DNA from: an uncultured Prevotellaceae bacterium
GTDB lineage: Bacteria; Bacteroidota; Bacteroidia; Bacteroidales; Bacteroidaceae
Assembly: GCA_900318685.1 (NCBI GenBank)
Contig: ONLL01000018.1
Location: forward strand, 18,206-82,205
Direction of reading: 5' to 3'
DNA: 64,000 bases
Shown here: positions 8,182 through 50,348 of the stretch, one piece after another
Layout of the letters: the number at the start of each line of letters is the position of its first letter
Position numbering within the stretch: position 1 is the stretch's first letter
Position numbers and translations under genes: made by a program
The notes under the pieces: model-generated
Database searches by the model: none
What the model was told of the DNA's origin: nothing
What the model saw: the letters and a program-made list of their open reading frames with translations, nothing else

Positions 8182-10686
8182 CTAATTGTGGAACACCAGT
8201 CCATCGCCAAATTCATCGACAACGATGGGACGCTCGCGAGTAACCTCGTCAGCCAACAGCTTACGAGACAATTCATTGAGCACATAATGCTGAATGGCTC
8301 GTTTAACGGGGCGTGCGCCCATATCAGGATCATAGCCTTCCCGGGCCAGCCAACCAATAGCGTGTTCCGTCACCTCAAGGGTGAACCCTTGCGGCTCCAA
8401 CATTTTCTTAACGCGGTCGAGCTGCAGACGCACCACTTGTGCTACCTCCTCCTTCGACAGCTGTTGGAAGGTGATAATCTCGTCGATACGGTTCAGGAAC
8501 TCGGGCCTCATCACCATACGCAGCTGCTCACGGGTGGCATTACTGGTCATGATGATAATGGTGTTCTTAAAGTCGGCCGTCCTTCCTTTGTTGTCTGTCA
8601 GTCGTCCGTCGTCCAGCACCTGCAACAGGATGTTGAACACGTCAGGATGAGCCTTCTCTATCTCATCGAAAAGCACCACGCTATAAGGCTTGCGCCTTAC
8701 CGCCTCAGTCAGCTGACCACCCTCATCGTAGCCCACATAGCCCGGAGGAGCGCCAATGAGTCGGCTGACGGTATGTTTCTCCTGATACTCCGACATATCG
8801 ATACGGGTCATCATCGTCTCGTCGTTGAACAAATACTCAGCCAATGCCTTGGCCAGCTCCGTCTTACCTACGCCCGTAGTTCCCATGAAGATAAACGAAG
8901 CGATAGGTCGCTTGGGGTCTTGTAGTCCTGCACGCGAACGACGTACGGCATCACTGACGGCACGTATAGCCTCGTCCTGACCTATCACCCGCTTGTGGAG
9001 TTCCTCCTCCAGGCGCAGCAGTTTTTCGCGTTCGCTTTGCATCATGCGGCTCACAGGAATGCCCGTCCAGCGCGACACCACCTCAGCGATATCATCGGCA
9101 GTAACTTCCTCGCGCACAAGTTTCTCGCCATCAGCATTGTTCAACTGGCTCTGTATCGAGGCGATATGAGCATCCAGCTCCTTCATCTTGCCATAGCGTA
9201 TCTCAGCCACTCGTCCATAGTTGCCTTCTCGCTCGGCTCGCTCAGCCTCATATTTCAGCGACTCCTTCTGCTGCTTATCCTGCTGAATCTGGTTCACCAG
9301 CTGACGTTCTCCTTCCCATCTGGCCCGGAACTGGGTCTCCTTTTCCTTTAGTGCAGAGATTTCCTTGTCCAGCTGCTGGATCTTAGGTTCGTCGCCCTCG
9401 CGTTTGATGGCCTCACGCTCAATCTCCAGCTGAGCCAGCCTGCGGGTGATTTCATCAAGCTCCTCAGGCACGCTGTCACGCTCCATACGCAGCTTGGCAG
9501 CAGCCTCGTCCATGAGGTCGATAGCCTTATCAGGCAGGAAACGCTCGGTGATATATCGCTCCGACAGCTTGACGGCTGCTATACAGGCATCATCCTGGAT
9601 ACGCACCTTATGGTGATTCTCATAGCGCTCCTTCAGGCCTCGCAGGATGGAAATGGCATCCAGCTCGTCGGGTTCATCGACCATCACCGTCTGGAAGCGT
9701 CGCTCAAGAGCCTTGTCCTTCTCGAAGTACTTCTGATATTCGTTGAGCGTTGTAGCACCGATAGCCCTCAGCTCACCACGTGCCAGTGCCGGCTTCAGGA
9801 TATTGGCTGCATCCATAGCGCCCTCACCTCCTCCGGCACCCACCAGCGTGTGGATCTCATCGATGAAGAGGATGACGCGTCCATCGCTCCTGGTCACCTC
9901 GTTGATGACGCTCTTCAGCCGCTCCTCAAATTCACCCTTATACTTAGCACCAGCCACGAGTGCACCCATATCGAGTGAATAAACTTGTTTGTCCTTCAGG
10001 TTCTCAGGCACGTCGCCACGCACGATACGTCCTGCCAGTCCTTCGACAATAGCAGTCTTACCCGTGCCGGGCTCACCTATGAGGATAGGGTTGTTTTTCG
10101 TACGACGTGAGAGTATCTGCAGCAGGCGGCGTATCTCGTCATCACGTCCGATGACAGGATCCAGCTTCCCTGCCCTTGCCAGGCTGACGAGGTTCTTGGC
10201 ATACTTCTCCAGCGACTGATAATTATCGTCAGCCGACTGCGACTGCACGCGTTGTCCCTGACGCAGCTCGAGGATGGCCTGCCGCATGTCCTTCTCTGTA
10301 GCGCCGCCGTCCTTGAGGATGCGACTCACAGTCGAGTTCACCAACAGCAGTGCCAGTAGAATAGGTTCGCACGATACATATTCATCGCCCATCTCCCGGG
10401 CTAAATCCTGTGCCTTCAGCAGCACCTTGTTAGCATCTGCCGAAAGATAAGGCTCACCGCCCTGAACACGTGCTAGGTGTCGAATCTCCTGCTGACAGAG
10501 CATTTCGATCTGGCCGGCGTTCATGCCAAGTTTCTGAAATACGAAGCCCACCACATCGCGCCCTTTATCCAGCAAGGCCGCCATCAGGTGAACAGGTTCA
10601 ATAGACTGCTGTCCGTTCTGTTGAGCCAACAGCACAGCCTGCTGAACCGTTTCCTGAGCTTTGATAGTAAATTTTTCCAGTGTCAT
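8182..10686 (-). CDS. clpB: ATP-dependent chaperone ClpB
   Basis: An 834-residue Hsp100 disaggregase. Order: N-domain ([13 protein letters not shown]), NBD1 with Walker A GEPGTGKT and Walker [11 protein letters not shown], the long coiled-coil middle domain (about residues 395-520) that separates ClpB from ClpA/ClpC, and NBD2 with GTTGVGKT and [10 protein letters not shown]. With DnaK it rescues aggregated proteins. The start at 10686 is chosen because [11 protein letters not shown] is the conserved N-terminus and an AGGAG lies 9 bases upstream; the frame is open 14 codons further, without support. No IGL/IGF loop for ClpP binding was seen. The 118-bp leader toward proA holds a small GGCGT/ACGCC hairpin but no CIRCE element. 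Confidence 0.96.
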
Positions 10687-13332: not shown

Positions 13333-13335
13333 GAC

Positions 13336-13396
13336 AAATCTCAAATCTCAAACCTCAAATCTCAAACCTCAAATCTCAAACCTCAAACCTCAAACC
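13336..13396 (-). repeat. Heptanucleotide array directly 3' of proB
   Basis: On the + strand about eight consecutive CTCAAAY units (sense strand RTTTGAG) fill the gap between proB and the next gene. The first unit touches the proB stop TGA (13397-13399). Period is 7 bp, so the TGA inside each unit falls in every frame. Confidence 0.9.
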
Positions 13397-14170
13397 TCAT
13401 CGAGTCAAGAACACCGTGTGAGGAGTATTTTCCTGATTTTGGAACAGATCGACGAGGATGTCGTCGCGCTCACCATTGGCGATGATCACGCGGATGCCCG
13501 ACTGCTGCACACGACTCGCAGTGGTGTACTTCGAATGCATCCCACCACGTCCGAAAGCACTCTTCTCCGGCTGGATATACTCCGACAGGTCGCGACCTGG
13601 CGCTACCTCGCGGATGAGCTCAGCCGAAGGATCATCGGGATGGGTGGTGAAGATGCCGTCGATGTTCGACAGCAGCACCAGCGTCTCGGCCTCCATCATC
13701 ATCGCAATGAGGCCCGACAGCTCGTCGTTATCCGTGAACATCAGCTCCGTGACACTCACCGTATCGTTCTCGTTCACGATAGGCAGTACGTCGTTCTCAA
13801 GCATCACTGTCATGCAGGCACGCTGGTTACGATACTGTTCACCGGGCTCGAAGTTCTCCTTCATCGTAAGCACCTGCCCGACGTGGATGCCGTATTCACG
13901 GAAGAGGTCGTAATAGAGTCCCACCAGTTTCACCTGCCCCACCGCCGAGAACAGCTGCCGCTGCTCCACCGAGTCAAGCGAGTGATCCACTGTCAGCTCC
14001 CTGCGCCCACAGGCCACAGCTCCCGAACTCACTAGAATCACTTCATAACCTTGGCGTCGCAGCCAAGCTATCTGGTCGACAATGGCCGACATACGAGTCA
14101 CATCGAGCTTCCCATCCTGTCGCGTGAGAACGTTGGAACCTACCTTGATAACAATCCTTTTATCCATCAC
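13397..14170 (-). CDS. proB: Glutamate 5-kinase, short form without PUA domain
   Basis: A 257-residue amino acid kinase. KVGSNVLTRQDGKLD is the N-terminal phosphate loop, VILVSSGAVACGRREL the glutamate-binding block, and NENDTVSVTELMFTDNDELSGLIA and LLSNIDGIFTTHP follow. It phosphorylates glutamate, the first and normally feedback-controlled step of proline synthesis. Enterobacterial ProB is about 367 residues because of a C-terminal PUA domain; this one ends right after the kinase domain, as in other Bacteroidetes. Promoter at 14189-14219. Confidence 0.95.
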   Translation of the reverse strand: MMDKRIVIKVGSNVLTRQDGKLDVTRMSAIVDQIAWLRRQGYEVILVSSGAVACGRRELTVDHSLDSVEQRQLFSAVGQVKLVGLYYDLFREYGIHVGQVLTMKENFEPGEQYRNQRACMTVMLENDVLPIVNENDTVSVTELMFTDNDELSGLIAMMMEAETLVLLSNIDGIFTTHPDDPSAELIREVAPGRDLSEYIQPEKSAFGRGGMHSKYTTASRVQQSGIRVIIANGERDDILVDLFQNQENTPHTVFLTR

Positions 14171-14219: not shown

Positions 14220-14623
14220 AGAAAAAAGGCTTTTTCTTTTCATTTCCGAGCGAAAGTACCTTCGAGCGCCAGCTCAAAGTTACGAAGAAGTGAGGAGAAA
14301 ACCAAAGGAACCTATGCTTTTTTGTTCTTAACCCTATGTTTTTTCATTCATAAAGCATATCCTTATAGTTCTCAACCCTATTCCTTTTTACTTCTTACCC
14401 CTCTACTGGCTATCCTACCCGCCCTCTTTCAGAACCTTCCTTTCGGATTTTGCTAACGCCGGACACGAAGGAACGACACCGAAGTTGGCCTCCCGTTAAA
14501 GTAAAACAAGTTGTTTTACCTTTCTAAGTCATAGGTTTTGCATACCAAAGTCGGCCACTTTCGAAGGTAAAACAACTTGTTTTACTTCATCAAGTGGCCG
14601 CCCTTCCATTCCAAAGGCCGGAA
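14220..14623. other. Gene-free stretch with two facing 19-bp palindromes
   Basis: About 400 bp between the proB promoter and the end of the DUF2264 gene. No open frame with coding character was found. The left part is pyrimidine-rich on the + strand with loosely repeated TTCTTAACCCTA-like strings (about 14325, 14378, 14393). The right part holds two copies of an inverted repeat listed separately. No intrinsic terminator with a T-run was found for the DUF2264 gene. Confidence 0.6.
14501..14600. repeat. Pair of GTAAAACAA-N-TTGTTTTAC palindromes, the second nested in a longer inverted repeat
   Basis: Copy 1 at 14501-14519 has central base G; copy 2 at 14567-14585 has central base C, so the two are exact reverse complements. 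Copy 2 sits inside a wider inverted repeat, CGGCCACTT at 14552-14560 with AAGTGGCCG at 14592-14600. Related AAGTYGGCC strings flank copy 1. Confidence 0.8.
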
Positions 14624-26919: not shown

Positions 26920-27043
26920 GCTTATTGGAAAGATTTTGTGCAAAAAACGCAGCGAATGGCGCAAAAAAGAGGTTAAATCTTCGATGATGCTCGTCTCTTT
27001 GCAAATAATTTTGTACTTTTGCGTGCTTTCCGAGATTGGCGTT

Positions 27044-27583
27044 ATGGACTGCGACCGCATCAGCCAGGTGATGCAGCCCGTCTTCCTCGATATGGAGAGT
27101 GAGCCCGTCCAGAAGCTTTGTGCCAAGCTGAGGGAGATCAGCCTCACCACGGGCTGGGAACCCGACGTCACCAAGAACTACTACATCGAGCACAGCCGCC
27201 ACGACAATTACGTGCCCATACAGTCGGTGCGCAACATCATCCCCTGGATGACGGAGAAGGGCCTGTCAAGAAGCAACCTGCCTGTCAACTACACCCTGTT
27301 CGATCTCATACCCGATATAGGCGATGTCCTGGCTAAGGTCGACCTGACCACCGACGACCTCGAAGAGATGTGCAACGATGCCGGCATCAGCCAGGTGGAC
27401 ATTCTGATGGCATACGCATATCTCATGACTGAAGAGGAGACGGAAGAGGCACCTGCCGCAACGACTACGCTCGAAGAGCGTGTGGAGGCTCCGCTCTTCC
27501 TGTTGCGCAGCTACGAGCAGACGCTGGCCAACTGGTTCAAGCTCGCCGGTTACGACGTCAACTACGAACTGTGGGGTATGTAA
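27044..27583 (+). CDS. Conserved-looking hypothetical protein, acidic, two-part
   Basis: A 179-residue soluble protein that I do not recognise. Residues 1-110 hold an acidic N-terminus (MDCDRISQVMQPVFLDME), YYIEHSRHDNYVPIQSVRNIIPWMTEKG and an LTTDDLEEMCNDAGISQVDILMAYAYL helical block; the C-terminus ends in YDVNYELWGM. No signal peptide or membrane segment. The frame is open upstream to 26936, but the ATG at 27044 follows a TACTTTTG box (27014-27021) and gives a plausible start. Stands alone between a divergent regulator gene and the repeat region. Codon use is like its neighbours, so I take it as real. Confidence 0.7.
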   Translation: MDCDRISQVMQPVFLDMESEPVQKLCAKLREISLTTGWEPDVTKNYYIEHSRHDNYVPIQSVRNIIPWMTEKGLSRSNLPVNYTLFDLIPDIGDVLAKVDLTTDDLEEMCNDAGISQVDILMAYAYLMTEEETEEAPAATTTLEERVEAPLFLLRSYEQTLANWFKLAGYDVNYELWGM

Positions 27584-27679
27584 TGTCTCACGGAAAAACA
27601 TTTTTTTGCGAGACCTAACATTACAAAATTACAACCTGTTAGTTTACAATAAGTTAAATACGCAAAACAAGCATTTCAC

Positions 27680-27823
27680 ACCTAACTAAGAGGTAACTAA
27701 GACCTAACATAGACCTAACATCACATCTAACATCGAAGTAAGGAAGTAGCCCCATTCATGTTAGGTCTATGTTAGGTCTTAGTTACCTCTTAGTTAGGTC
27801 TTAGTTACCTCTTAGTTACCTCT
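27680..27823. repeat. Two facing arrays of an 11-bp repeat forming a perfect 42-bp inverted repeat
   Basis: Left arm 27680-27721 and right arm 27758-27799 are perfect reverse complements over 42 bp, with a 36-nt loop. The right side is six units of WWGTTASSTCT: ATGTTAGGTCT twice, then TAGTTACCTCT, TAGTTAGGTCT, TAGTTACCTCT, TAGTTACCTCT (27758-27823). The left arm has the complement units AGACCTAACAT twice, AGAGGTAACTA, and a partial one. Single outer copies lie at 27611-27621 and 27879-27889 in mirrored orientation. Confidence 0.97.
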
Positions 27824-27973
27824 TGAAGGCCATTAAAAACGCATAAATCACTTATATATAGACACTTATAAAAACGCAATGTTAGGTCTTAAGAAAAAAG
27901 GACTAAACTTAAAAATTTTCGTCATTTAAGAAACGACAACCTAGATGGTCAAAAGCGACAAGCAAGAGGCCGA

Positions 27974-28042
27974 GGAGCGTTACGCTCCCACGCTGGGAAT
28001 GTTACGCTCCCAGCATGGGAATGACTCGCTCCCAGCATGGGA
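27974..28042. repeat. Three short palindromes at 22-bp spacing plus a GGAGCG hairpin
   Basis: TCCCA-N3-TGGGA occurs at 27986-27998, 28008-28020 and 28030-28042, exactly 22 bp apart, joined by AATGTTACGC / AATGACTCGC-like linkers. The first is preceded by GGAGCG-TTA-CGCTCC (27974-27988). From memory, similar units are found between genes in other Bacteroidales. Confidence 0.92.
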
Positions 28043-28139
28043 ACAGACTGCCCGTCAGTTTCTTTGGAGTACCAGAACACCAAGCAGCGGAGGCAAACGC
28101 GTGCGGTTTGTCGATTACGAACGCTTTTATGGAACATTG

Positions 28140-29170: not shown

Positions 29171-29629
29171 ATGTATATGAGAAAGACAATCATCATGTTC
29201 CTGATGCTCGTGGCCTGCCTCTCGGCATCGGCCCAGACGGGGCTGAAGATCAACGAGCTCTTCGAGGGACGCATCATTCCGCAGGAGCGAATGATGGAGA
29301 CCCGTGTAAGGGGAAAGTCGATAGCTAAGTATCAGCTCACCTACTACCGCAGCCTGCGCCTCAACGTCACGAACAAGGAAGCCGGACAGCTGCGCCAACT
29401 GCTGGGACAGGATACCGAGCGGAGCATCGACTGGCGCACCAGCCGCAAGAATCCCCACAGCTGGGACACCTGGACCTGCAAGATGCAGATGCCGTCGGCT
29501 GGCAACAAGAACCGCTTCCTGTGCTATCAGGAGGAGTGGAACAAAGAGCACGAGCAATGCAAGCTGACCGTCATCTATATGGAAGGCACCGTCGGCAGTC
29601 TGGAAGAACTGGAAGAACTTCTCAAGTAG
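29171..29629 (+). CDS. Small secreted protein, unknown function, in the ECF operon
   Basis: A 152-residue protein with a signal peptide (KTIIMFLMLVACLSASAQ). The mature part (TGLKINELFEGRIIPQERMMETRVRGKSIAKY, LTYYRSLRLN, WTCKMQMPSAGNKNRFLCYQE) is basic and looks like a single alpha/beta domain; two Cys residues could make a disulphide. I do not recognise a named family with certainty. It is the third gene of the sigma operon, 8 bp after its predecessor. Right after its TAG stop come heptamer repeats. Alternative start at 29177. Confidence 0.8.
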   Translation: MYMRKTIIMFLMLVACLSASAQTGLKINELFEGRIIPQERMMETRVRGKSIAKYQLTYYRSLRLNVTNKEAGQLRQLLGQDTERSIDWRTSRKNPHSWDTWTCKMQMPSAGNKNRFLCYQEEWNKEHEQCKLTVIYMEGTVGSLEELEELLK

Positions 29630-29665
29630 AGTTAGGAGTTTGGAGTTAGGAGTTAGGAGTTAAGA
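29627..29665 (+). repeat. AGTTAGG heptamer array directly after a stop codon
   Basis: The TAG stop at 29627-29629 is followed at once by AGTTAGG, AGTTTGG, AGTTAGG, AGTTAGG, AGTTAAG: five 7-bp units in the sense strand, the same placement as the GRTTTGA arrays. It lies between the third and fourth genes of the ECF operon. Confidence 0.85.
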
Positions 29666-29682
29666 ACAAAACCATTATAGTC

Positions 29683-30576
29683 ATGAACCGAATCATTTAT
29701 TTGTCATTTATCATTTGGCATTTGTCATTTGGCAGCGCAGCTGCTCAAAACGACACCCTCGTCATCAACAACCCCAGGAAGGTGACCATCATCAGCAGCG
29801 ACTCGCTGCAGCGCGTCATCGTCAACGGCAAGCAAGGCGACGACGACTTCACCTACCAGAACACCATCCGTCTGGTCGATGCCAACTACGAGAGCAACAC
29901 CAGCATCAGCCGCGACCATTGGGAGCTCATACCCTCGGTAAAGGTAGGAAAGAGCGGCAGCCAAAACGAGGATGGCATCCACTATCCCCACTATAACAAT
30001 GAGATATCTGCTCATCTGGGAGTGGGCTTCACTTGCCCCACACATGTCGACAGCCGGGTAGACTTCTCGACGTTCAAGTCGTGGGAGATCTTCGCTACTG
30101 TCATGCAGTGGGATCACTTCCTCGACCGCAAAGACCGCAACATGATCTCACTGGGCCTCGGCATCGACTGGCGCAACTACCGCATGACCGACGACATGCA
30201 CTTCACCAAGGGGCCTGATGGCAACGTCACCGTAGAGAAGATGCCGCTGGAGTTCGAGCCGAAGTTCTCTCGTATCAAAGTATTCTCTCTCACGGCAACA
30301 CTCCGCTACGAACACGACTTCGGCGACGGCTTTGCCATCGGCTTCGGCCCCATATTCAACTATAACGCCTACGCCTCGATTAAGACACGTTACAAGCTGC
30401 TGGGCGACAAGCTTCAGCACAATGAGAAGAAGATACGCCAGCGCCCATTCACCATCGACTGGATGCTCAACATGCGCATCGCCGGCTTCCCCTTCTACGT
30501 GAAATACTCGAACGACGACGTGCTCAAGGATGGTGGCGTGAAATTCCGCTCACTCTCCTTCGGACTCTACCTCTAA
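29683..30576 (+). CDS. Outer-membrane beta-barrel protein, paralogue of the barrel at 3019-3795
   Basis: A 297-residue protein with a signal peptide encoded by heptamer repeats (YLSFIIWHLSFGSAAAQ), a linker that starts VINNPRKVTIISSDSLQRVIVNG, and a barrel domain ending SLSFGLYL. It shares SWEI, LGLGIDWRNY, QRPFTID and KF-SL-FG-YL with the 258-residue protein at 3019. It is the last gene of the ECF sigma operon, so the sigma factor or its partner may monitor this envelope protein. A strong hairpin terminator follows. Exact role unknown. Confidence 0.83.
   Translation: MNRIIYLSFIIWHLSFGSAAAQNDTLVINNPRKVTIISSDSLQRVIVNGKQGDDDFTYQNTIRLVDANYESNTSISRDHWELIPSVKVGKSGSQNEDGIHYPHYNNEISAHLGVGFTCPTHVDSRVDFSTFKSWEIFATVMQWDHFLDRKDRNMISLGLGIDWRNYRMTDDMHFTKGPDGNVTVEKMPLEFEPKFSRIKVFSLTATLRYEHDFGDGFAIGFGPIFNYNAYASIKTRYKLLGDKLQHNEKKIRQRPFTIDWMLNMRIAGFPFYVKYSNDDVLKDGGVKFRSLSFGLYL
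29699..29733 (+). repeat. ATTTGKC heptamer array inside a signal-peptide coding region
   Basis: ATTTGTC, ATTTATC, ATTTGGC, ATTTGTC, ATTTGGC: five contiguous 7-bp units in the gene starting at 29683. Because three heptamers equal seven codons, the encoded peptide has a 7-residue rhythm (LSF...LSF). Confidence 0.92.
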
Positions 30577-34218: not shown

Positions 34219-34237
34219 CGGTATAGAGTCGTGACCC

Positions 34238-34314
34238 CTCAAACCTCAAATCTCAAATCTCAAATCTCAAACCTCAAATCTCAAACCTCAAATCTCAAAC
34301 CTCAAACCTCAAAT
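34238..34314 (-). repeat. Eleven-unit heptanucleotide array directly 3' of the asparaginase gene
   Basis: Exactly 77 bp made of eleven CTCAAAY units on the + strand (sense RTTTGAG). It begins next to the asparaginase stop codon TAG (34315-34317) and ends 19 bp from the mltG stop. Confidence 0.95.
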
Positions 34315-49091: not shown

Positions 49092-50348
49092 ATGAAGAAG
49101 ATGATCCTTTCCCTGATGGCCATGCTGACGGTAGCAGTATCAGCAAGCGCCATGTCTTACGAGCAGGCTCGCAACGAAGCCCTCTTCCTCACCGATAAGA
49201 TGGCTTATGAGCTCAACCTCACTGACGCTCAGTATGAGGCTGCCTACGAGATAAACCTCGACTACCTCATGGGTGTTACCAGCCAGTACGATGTGTTTGG
49301 CCCCTACTGGGAGCGCCGCAACCTCGACCTGAGCTATATTCTCTACTCGTGGCAGTGGGATCTCTACCGCGCAGCCACCTATTTCTACCGTCCCCTGTTC
49401 TTTGACGCAGGCTACTGGCACTTCGGCATCTATGCGCGCTATCCTCACCGCGACTACTTCTACTTCGGACGTCCCGCCTTTTATATCTCCTATCGTGGCG
49501 GACACAGCTGGAGGATGAACGGAGGACGCAGTTTCTACGAGGGACGTCGCGACCACTACCGTCCTGAGCATCGTTCACGCGACCAGCACTTCGGCATGCG
49601 CAACGGATGGGACCGCGGCGACTATCGTGGCGGTAATCCCGGCAGCCGGCCTAGCTCTACACACGTCACTGGCAGCACACGCTTCAACGACCGTCCCAAC
49701 AACGATGGCGAGCGCACGCTCCATGTTGGAGGCAGCCGCAGCGGCGGACAGCAGGGTGGCTTCGGCAGCGGACGTTTCGGAGGAAATGTCAATGACCGCC
49801 AGAATAACAACGGCATGGGCGAACGTCCTCAGGGCGGTGTAGGTACTCAGGGCAATCAGAATGGCGTAGGGTCGCAGGGCGACCGTCCTACTATGGGAGG
49901 CTCGCGCTCTGGTGGAGCATTCGATGGAACACGCAGTTCTGGTACAGGCACAGGCACCACCGGTGGTCCTTCCGTAGGCACTTCACGCTCTAATGGTTCC
50001 TTTGGCGGTAGTCGTCCCAACGTTACCCCGACTCAGCCTAGCGTTGCTCCCAGCCGTCCCAACGTCGTCAGCCCAAGTCGTACCACCGTCACTCCCAGCC
50101 AGCCCAGTGTCACTACTAGTCGACCCAGTGTCACCACCAGCCGTCCTAGCGTCACCACAAGTCGTCCTAGCGTTACCACAAGTCGTCCCAGCGTTACCAC
50201 AAGCCGTCCTAGCGTTACCACAAGCCGTCCTAGCGTTACCACTAGCCGCCCCAGTGGTGGCAGCACAACACGCAGCGCTGGCTCCGTTGGCGGAGGCCGT
50301 AGCGGCGGCAGCAATAGTCACGGAAGCTTCGGTGGCAGTCGCAGATAA
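49092..50348 (+). CDS. Secreted low-complexity protein with VTTSRPS repeats
   Basis: A 418-residue protein. Signal peptide (MILSLMAMLTVAVSASA); an Ala/Tyr-rich folded part to about residue 130 with a Trp/Tyr/Arg-rich face (WERRNLDLSYILYSWQWDLYRA, RYPHRDYFYFGRPAFY); then a Gly/Arg/Ser-rich region and seven perfect heptapeptides SVTTSRP (nt 50106-50252, 21-bp units), ending GGSTTRSAGSVGGG. The repeat DNA is so free of stops that several other frames are open; they are shadows. Could be a surface or matrix protein; no family is known to me. A strong terminator follows 34 bp after the stop. Confidence 0.78.
   Translation: MKKMILSLMAMLTVAVSASAMSYEQARNEALFLTDKMAYELNLTDAQYEAAYEINLDYLMGVTSQYDVFGPYWERRNLDLSYILYSWQWDLYRAATYFYRPLFFDAGYWHFGIYARYPHRDYFYFGRPAFYISYRGGHSWRMNGGRSFYEGRRDHYRPEHRSRDQHFGMRNGWDRGDYRGGNPGSRPSSTHVTGSTRFNDRPNNDGERTLHVGGSRSGGQQGGFGSGRFGGNVNDRQNNNGMGERPQGGVGTQGNQNGVGSQGDRPTMGGSRSGGAFDGTRSSGTGTGTTGGPSVGTSRSNGSFGGSRPNVTPTQPSVAPSRPNVVSPSRTTVTPSQPSVTTSRPSVTTSRPSVTTSRPSVTTSRPSVTTSRPSVTTSRPSVTTSRPSGGSTTRSAGSVGGGRSGGSNSHGSFGGSRR
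50106..50252 (+). repeat. Seven 21-bp tandem repeats coding SVTTSRP
   Basis: Unit AGYGTYACYACNAGYCGNCC, seven copies in the 418-residue protein, preceded by diverged PSQPSV units. Third-base differences between units show they are not brand-new copies. Confidence 0.95.

Follow-up and report, generated by a model that had tools for sequence, protein, structure and literature searches.

Results

The repeat block and its position in the window

The repeat block lies at 27601–27899 of the window (the whole 64-kb stretch of DNA that was analysed), upstream of an ECF sigma operon, and its parts are listed in Table 1. At its core is a 42-nt inverted repeat, the arms of which (27680–27721 and 27758–27799) are 100% complementary and lie 36 nt apart. 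The preliminary description had called this repeat perfect and built of 11-bp units, six of them on the right, and had likened the arrays to iterons; the repeat is indeed exact, without a mismatch, 11-bp direct repeats were confirmed, and we agree that the arrays have an iteron-like look. The word GTTASSTCT occurs 11 times in the window, every time within 27611–27889, against a mean of 1.26 and a largest count of 4 in 100 shuffles. When folded as single-stranded DNA, 27675–27825 has a z of -12.2, with 0 of 200 shuffles as good.

The mirrored single units reported at 27611 and 27879 were also found, and the mirror symmetry reaches out to 27601–27622 and 27878–27899 (82%), so that the block has terminal inverted repeats, as do MITEs and IS-type elements. 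The spacers of the window's own element type are AT-rich and lack the CCTTTGTACAAAGG-like palindrome described below for other elements.

Table 1 Features of the repeat block and of the adjacent palindrome array, in window positions.
Feature	Position	Strand	Evidence or remark
Left terminus: T-run and single outer word AGACCTAACAT (27611–27621)	27601–27621		Mirrored at 27878–27899 (82%); outer word recurs at ends of copies in the same genome
Left spacer, outer word to array	27622–27677		First array unit 67 bp from left outer unit; spacing across the family peaks at 65–67 bp
Left array, four word units, the outermost the variant GTTAGGTGT (27678–27686)	27678–27721	-	Repeat and word searches
36-bp centre, one degraded unit (27723–27731, by eye)	27722–27757		Position of vapE in gene-bearing copy (cf. 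C42, C19)
Right array, six 11-bp word units	27758–27823	+	Repeat and word searches
Right spacer	27824–27878		Outer unit 66 bp from last array unit
Right terminus: single outer word ATGTTAGGTCT (27879–27889) and A-rich run	27879–27899		Repeat and word searches
22-bp-period palindrome array TCCCAN3TGGGA, separate, associated	27974–28043		Accessory, often just beyond one element end

Copies in the same genome and an enclosed vapE gene

Three-unit and two-unit patterns of the window word locate it at eight places in its own genome: the window itself (contig C16) and contigs C19, C28, C34, C42, C46, C50 and C64. Facing arrays are present at seven of the eight; on C64 just one side carries a full array, and the right array on C34 stops short. 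On C42 the arrays stand 1.6 kb apart around an intact 415-aa open reading frame, which is vapE: its product matches the Pfam VapE-like domain PF05272 (123.8 bits), together with DUF5906 and, weakly, DUF3874 (29.6 bits; cut-off 28.3). The arrays on C19 enclose a vapE remnant of 33 aa (94%). Because the C42 gene and the C19 remnant lie inside like arrays, a gene-bearing element has the same ends as the gene-less copies, that of the window among them, and dispersed gene-less copies of this kind are a hallmark of MITEs. The outer word is also found at the ends of other copies in the genome.

The two proteins of the C42 copy match only PF05272, DUF5906, DUF3874 and DUF6078, with nothing from NCBIfam and only helicase/primase families from PHROGs. 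No transposase, integrase or nuclease was recognised in the two genes (Pfam, NCBIfam, PHROGs), no phage packaging gene was matched among them, and no HUH nuclease domain was recognised in their products. A defence system was considered and set aside, as neither VapE nor DUF6078 of this copy has a PADLOC match.

Across the 12 ends of six of these copies, the outer word is 97% identical and the next 49 bp 39% identical (ungapped; some spacers look alignable once gaps are allowed), which implies that the copies are old or that the words are kept where they lie. The 22-bp palindrome array is found about 75–120 bp from an end in six of the eight copies and 640–690 bp from the end on C34, and none was found by the C50 copy.

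The preliminary description had placed the block in front of an ECF sigma operon. The gene beside it is genuine (PF04542/PF08281), but a functional tie did not hold up: since the other examined copies adjoin unrelated genes, the ECF neighbourhood is incidental and the block is not a device of that operon. Ten of 13 genes neighbouring the gene-less copies were scanned, and they are mutually unrelated (EamA, GH10, ROK, methylmalonyl-CoA mutase, epimerase, M56/TonB, HipA, GH38, AAA/DUF4143 and metallophosphatase). Of 15 regions fetched from in front of orthologous ECF operons (one region only 418 bp), none contains the window word. In an Rfam search of the block no family reaches its gathering score, and because the matches are microRNA models below those scores, we read the hairpin as generic; the structured RNA suggested earlier has nothing but the symmetry in its favour and was rejected.

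Mirrored words flank vapE across the family

Two VapE paralogues in the same genome (C30 and C41; 70% and 67% identical) have the same flank design with different words, and the C30 word also occurs in gene-less copies, at both ends on C21 and C22 and at one end on C36 and C38. Two distant VapE proteins of this genome (C23 and C54; 34% and 33%) have no mirrored flanks, with scores of 11 and 9. VapE relatives at E ≤ 1e-80 are present in 89 of 299 genomes of the genus, and 40 loci were taken from among the matches listed, mainly top ones distant from contig ends, with some divergent ones added. A GTDB scan returned at least 439 relatives; the best 80 of the 439, which were kept, belong to Prevotella, Prevotellaceae, Bacteroidaceae or Bacteroidales, are mostly of ruminant origin, and include locus L207 of the cultured P. 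communis E15-14. With three loci of the window's own genome this made 123 loci, 104 unique genes and 97 loci with enough flank. No in-frame stop was found within the 104 matched vapE genes, which were drawn from best matches; the genus-wide set of matches holds one with a stop (G154) and several that are partial.

The left and right flanks of a locus score at least 20 as inverted repeats in 78 of the 97 vapE loci (the other 19 score below 20), as against 31 of 776 mismatched pairings of a left flank with the right flanks of other loci. For the first 43 loci the median score is 35 versus 9 for mismatched flanks, and 0 of 17 control ORFs reach 20. A mirrored word occurs at least twice on each side in 89 of the 97 loci, a count that is weak alone because a looser 6-mer control passes 45 of 97. 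The spacings of the words appear to be stronger evidence: as raw tallies across the 97 loci, they are 11 bp (150), 12 bp (89), 66 bp (52), 67 bp (19) and 65 bp (13), the outer word copy lying 65–67 bp from the array, and the word is doubled at 7/8 bp at the element tip in 27 instances. The preliminary description had proposed looking for one gene family beside such arrays; there is one, and it is vapE, not ECF sigma.

In many spacers the word recurs in inverted form alongside a CCTTTGTACAAAGG-like palindrome, and as a pattern for the palindromic core matches in 18 of 97 loci, we take the palindrome to be common, not universal. In 47 of 97 loci, vapE is followed at no more than 500 bp by a DUF6078 gene in the same orientation, and in L027 this gene lies directly beyond the right end (10212–10661); the name DUF6078 was found nowhere in the open-licence PMC text searched. 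The 22-bp palindrome arrays number 48 in the 189 kb near the elements, at 41 of 97 loci and with 42 of the arrays on the 5′ side, versus 3 in 401 kb farther away. The array was nonetheless rejected as a fixed part of every element, since it accompanies 41 of the 97 and occurs within a second repeat family as well.

The word covaries with a C-terminal segment of VapE

By comparison of the loci, the word differs between lineages and agrees at both ends of an element. Lineages with related words (such as L085/L096 or the GTTA-type group) score high against each other among the 43 loci, which makes the word a property of the lineage, not of every locus. In the same 43 loci, word similarity gives a partial value of -0.236 against VapE residues 361–405 and of -0.193 against residues 1–45, with 0 of 200 permutations as low in either case, shared ancestry being handled by permutation only; there is no tracking of the ATPase segment. 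For pairs with a core identity of 0.80–0.85, the C-terminal difference is 0.388 where words differ (n = 20) versus 0.265 where they are the same (n = 22), the core identity of the different-word pairs being slightly lower (0.819 vs 0.839). The contrast is small at 0.85–0.90 (0.255, n = 4, vs 0.221, n = 48), and above 0.90 zero pairs are classed as different-word.

A natural word-switch pair lies within one genome, G079, where the VapE proteins of L101 (word CATATAC) and L103 (word CTATTAAC) are 95.5% identical; 18 of 401 residues differ, seven at 358–396 and four at 2–5, and the pair falls in neither word class of the identity-binned comparison. L104, with 66 differences from L101, has the stretch LLYNNKR in common with L103 and, by eye, a TTAACAT-type word.

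In the structure model, the region of residues 361–405 is a C-terminal winged helix, with which the word covaries in the loci compared. The ATPase was poorly predicted in a first model (mean pLDDT 64.9), and a second model with distant relatives added reached a pLDDT of 82.3. The best solved relative of VapE is PriRep1 (PDB 7pds), which we take to be of staphylococcal-island origin, with 7ola (titled SaPI5) beside it and AAV Rep40 among the fold matches. Profile and fold support VapE as a likely PriRep-like initiator helicase, in which no primase domain was recognised. The repeats beside vapE, and their covariation with a C-terminal segment that is a candidate recognition domain, mark VapE as a strong candidate for binding its own word.

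Near-identical units lie in different surroundings

In addition to the dispersed gene-less copies, near-identical units are seen in different DNA when loci are aligned: L076/L152 (98% over 2309 bp), L159/L160 (93% over 2203 bp) and L197/L198 (93% over 2473 bp). Among 299 pairs with vapE at least 80% identical, eight share any flanking gene and one shares both, counts that are lowered by contig ends and short contigs. We estimate the shared unit at roughly 1.6–2.5 kb, and shared blocks usually stop near DUF6078 or the right compound end. Of ten DUF6078-bearing pairs judged by eye, six have their left edge no more than about 20 bp from the palindrome array, two have it some 85 bp ahead of that array and two have it elsewhere; the right edge is within about 90 bp of the DUF6078 end in all ten. 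Eight further pairs include L086/L207, whose shared block stops immediately beyond the right compound end, and some whose left edge coincides with the outer word; L092/L184 have further sequence in common downstream, L100/L215 have both flanks in common, and L094/L182 one.

Gene-less facing arrays at up to one mismatch are found elsewhere in nine of ten genomes with the window VapE type (e.g. G118 and G203), and exact two-unit arrays occur in 9 of the 14 genomes whose vapE is at least 80% identical, versus 8 of 285 others (p = 9e-10, the 80% cut having been chosen afterwards). Arrays of the window word thus recur in other species and are not confined to this locus; the strict three-unit pattern is absent in 59 other genomes. 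A separate observation concerns G129 (82% complete), which holds several exact two-unit arrays of the window type yet has no VapE match at E ≤ 1e-80.

No target-site duplication was evident by eye at the edges of the compared pairs, and no exact empty site was recovered at the window's left gene, the ECF operon or the C46 epimerase neighbour. For the left gene, one relative (G031) matches partly and has a different next gene, and others match over only 22–30 bp. At the ECF loci L257, L260 and L261 an XRE-cupin gene directly adjoins the ECF gene (by eye), a comparison that is inexact because the window has an extra gene there (26936–27583). The C46 epimerase neighbour has a match in 302 genomes; in the 20 that were fetched (one only 372 bp), neither the word nor an adjacent copy of the other flanking gene was found (0/20 each).

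Discussion

A probable small mobile element with private iterons

We consider it probable that rumen-type Prevotella harbours a family of small mobile elements whose helicase recognises private iterons at both ends, and that 27601–27899 belongs to this family as a gene-less, MITE-like derivative. The association with vapE, the matching of words and the relocation of units are well supported by the sequence comparisons, from which we infer VapE binding and the mode of movement. A complete element has vapE, encoding a PriRep/D5-type helicase, between two mirrored compound ends, each consisting of an outer private word of about 7–9 bp, then a spacer, then a few copies at an 11/12-bp period. The spacer in many elements carries the palindrome, often an inverted word copy; DUF6078 lies 3′ of vapE in about half of the elements, and a 22-bp palindrome array, mostly on the 5′ side, accompanies about two fifths. 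In the mechanism that we propose, the winged helix of VapE would bind the element's word along a single face of the DNA helix, helicase rings would be loaded at both ends and the DNA opened, gene-less copies with the same word would be served in trans, and relocation would occur via host replication or nuclease enzymes. More speculatively, words may diverge to keep co-resident elements apart, by analogy with iteron incompatibility, an idea weakened because the co-resident L085 and L096 of G316 have the same word (cross-scores 76 and 70). Several results count against the mobile reading: neither an exact empty site nor a target duplication was recovered, the two C42 genes show no recognised nuclease, integrase or transposase, 8 of 285 genomes that lack a close vapE of the window type nevertheless have arrays, 19 of 97 loci score below 20, and the looser 6-mer control passes 45 of 97.

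It is also possible, and we put this forward tentatively, that the family represents a recombinase-free class of mobile DNA, with a lone initiator helicase, a private iteron word at both ends, copy-out replication (hairpin-primed or by strand displacement), and host enzymes that finish and re-insert the copy. The word would then be a rewritable address, changed at about ten positions in concert, along with the wing of the winged helix, and lineages would be mostly blind to each other in one genome, each with its own gene-less satellites. In G290, for example, there are six copies of vapE, among which no fewer than four words are clearly distinct; G316, with two alike, is an exception.

AAV combines a Rep SF3-like helicase with inverted terminal repeats that have potential hairpins, and the vapE element is similar in its SF3-like helicase and in the repeats and potential hairpins at both ends; unlike AAV Rep, it has no recognised HUH nuclease domain. 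Rolling-hairpin flip/flop was not established, the direct orientation being better in 40, the flipped in 12 and the two equal in 3 of 55 loci, with no clear signature. Eukaryotic foldback transposons have long inverted repeats made of short tandem repeats; these ends are alike, the host domain and the enzymes are different, and to our knowledge no foldback transposon has a private word per element. No description of a vapE-iteron element was found in open-licence PMC text with the few terms used, which is weak evidence of absence, and we take the combination as new because its parts are of known kinds but no element described in that text combines them. If the proposal is true, mobile elements can spread even when their sole conserved protein is an initiator-type helicase. 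The family would then be a natural library of a protein domain with its matching DNA word (97 usable loci), making the joint change of a binding specificity and a many-copy array directly testable, and would account for conspicuous mirrored intergenic repeats in rumen-type Prevotella and show where more may lie.

Alternative explanations

The conserved words and diverged spacers would also fit a stationary function. VapE and its arrays would then be a chromosomal module for replication or regulation, and the host would use the gene-less arrays as satellite binding sites; the stop-free vapE genes among the best matches point the same way. We nevertheless think this unlikely, given the patchy distribution among genomes, the unrelated neighbours, the near-identical units in different contexts and the vapE remnant on C19.

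An ordinary DNA transposon, with an unseen transposase acting in trans on the ends and vapE as passenger or accessory ATPase, would explain a unit that looks mobile, has inverted ends and also occurs in copies without the gene. The termini of the P. gingivalis MITE BrickBuilt resemble IS ends: its 23-nt repeat lies between a leader and a tail whose tips are like IS5-family ends (PMC4596501). MITEs of this type are likewise short, non-coding multicopy units with tandem repeats, whereas the ends of the vapE element consist of the repeats themselves and its partner is a helicase gene. The end word varies by lineage and covaries with the VapE C-terminal domain, one foreign transposase would need to read many different words, and the C42 genes lack a transposase domain, all of which makes such a transposon quite unlikely in our judgement. 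Neither was any known transposon found to own the arrays.

A reduced phage satellite or PICI-type replicon that lost its integrase seems very doubtful, even with PriRep1 as the closest fold and matches to phage helicase/primase profiles. The plasmid and phage collections hold no record at 60% identity or more, the best of 23 IMG/VR candidates reaching 31%, and a phage or plasmid origin was rejected; moreover, the unit is small, and repeats stand to either side of the gene in place of one origin. The SaPI Rep/PriRep and SCCmec Cch2 proteins are initiator helicases with iteron origins (PMC7581432), and the likeness extends to a PriRep-like helicase fold, short repeats by the gene and a C-terminal domain that is likely DNA-binding. 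The vapE element differs in its mirrored repeats on both sides with a spaced outer copy, in the absence of a recognised primase domain, in its dispersed gene-less copies, and in words that vary by element.

That the block is a regulator-binding platform or a structured RNA/terminator for the ECF sigma operon, as its upstream location and the strong hairpin of 27675–27825 might suggest, was already disfavoured and can be given almost no credence in view of the word's absence upstream of orthologous operons, the unrelated genes beside other copies and the lack of any Rfam family at threshold.

Other repeats

A second dispersed repeat family (L129, L130, L131 and L134–L141; in the window's own genome C9, C14, C16, C26, C38, C40, C44 twice, C45, C49 and C61) has TCCCAN3TGGGA palindromes, in many copies with CTAGTATGGCACTTTG repeats at about 22 bp, and these palindromes sit in the middle of a stretch of about 600 bp with recurring outer parts. 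Elsewhere in the window, heptamer arrays TCAAACC/TCAAATC lie at 13335–13399 and 34237–34313, two copies of a GTAAAACAAGTTGTTTTAC palindrome at 14500–14590, and the heptamer repeats GAGTTAG and ATTTGTC at 29629–29662 and 29699–29731, around an ORF start at 29683. A repeat array of about 200 bp, with periods of 21, 42 and 63 bp, occupies 50037–50254.
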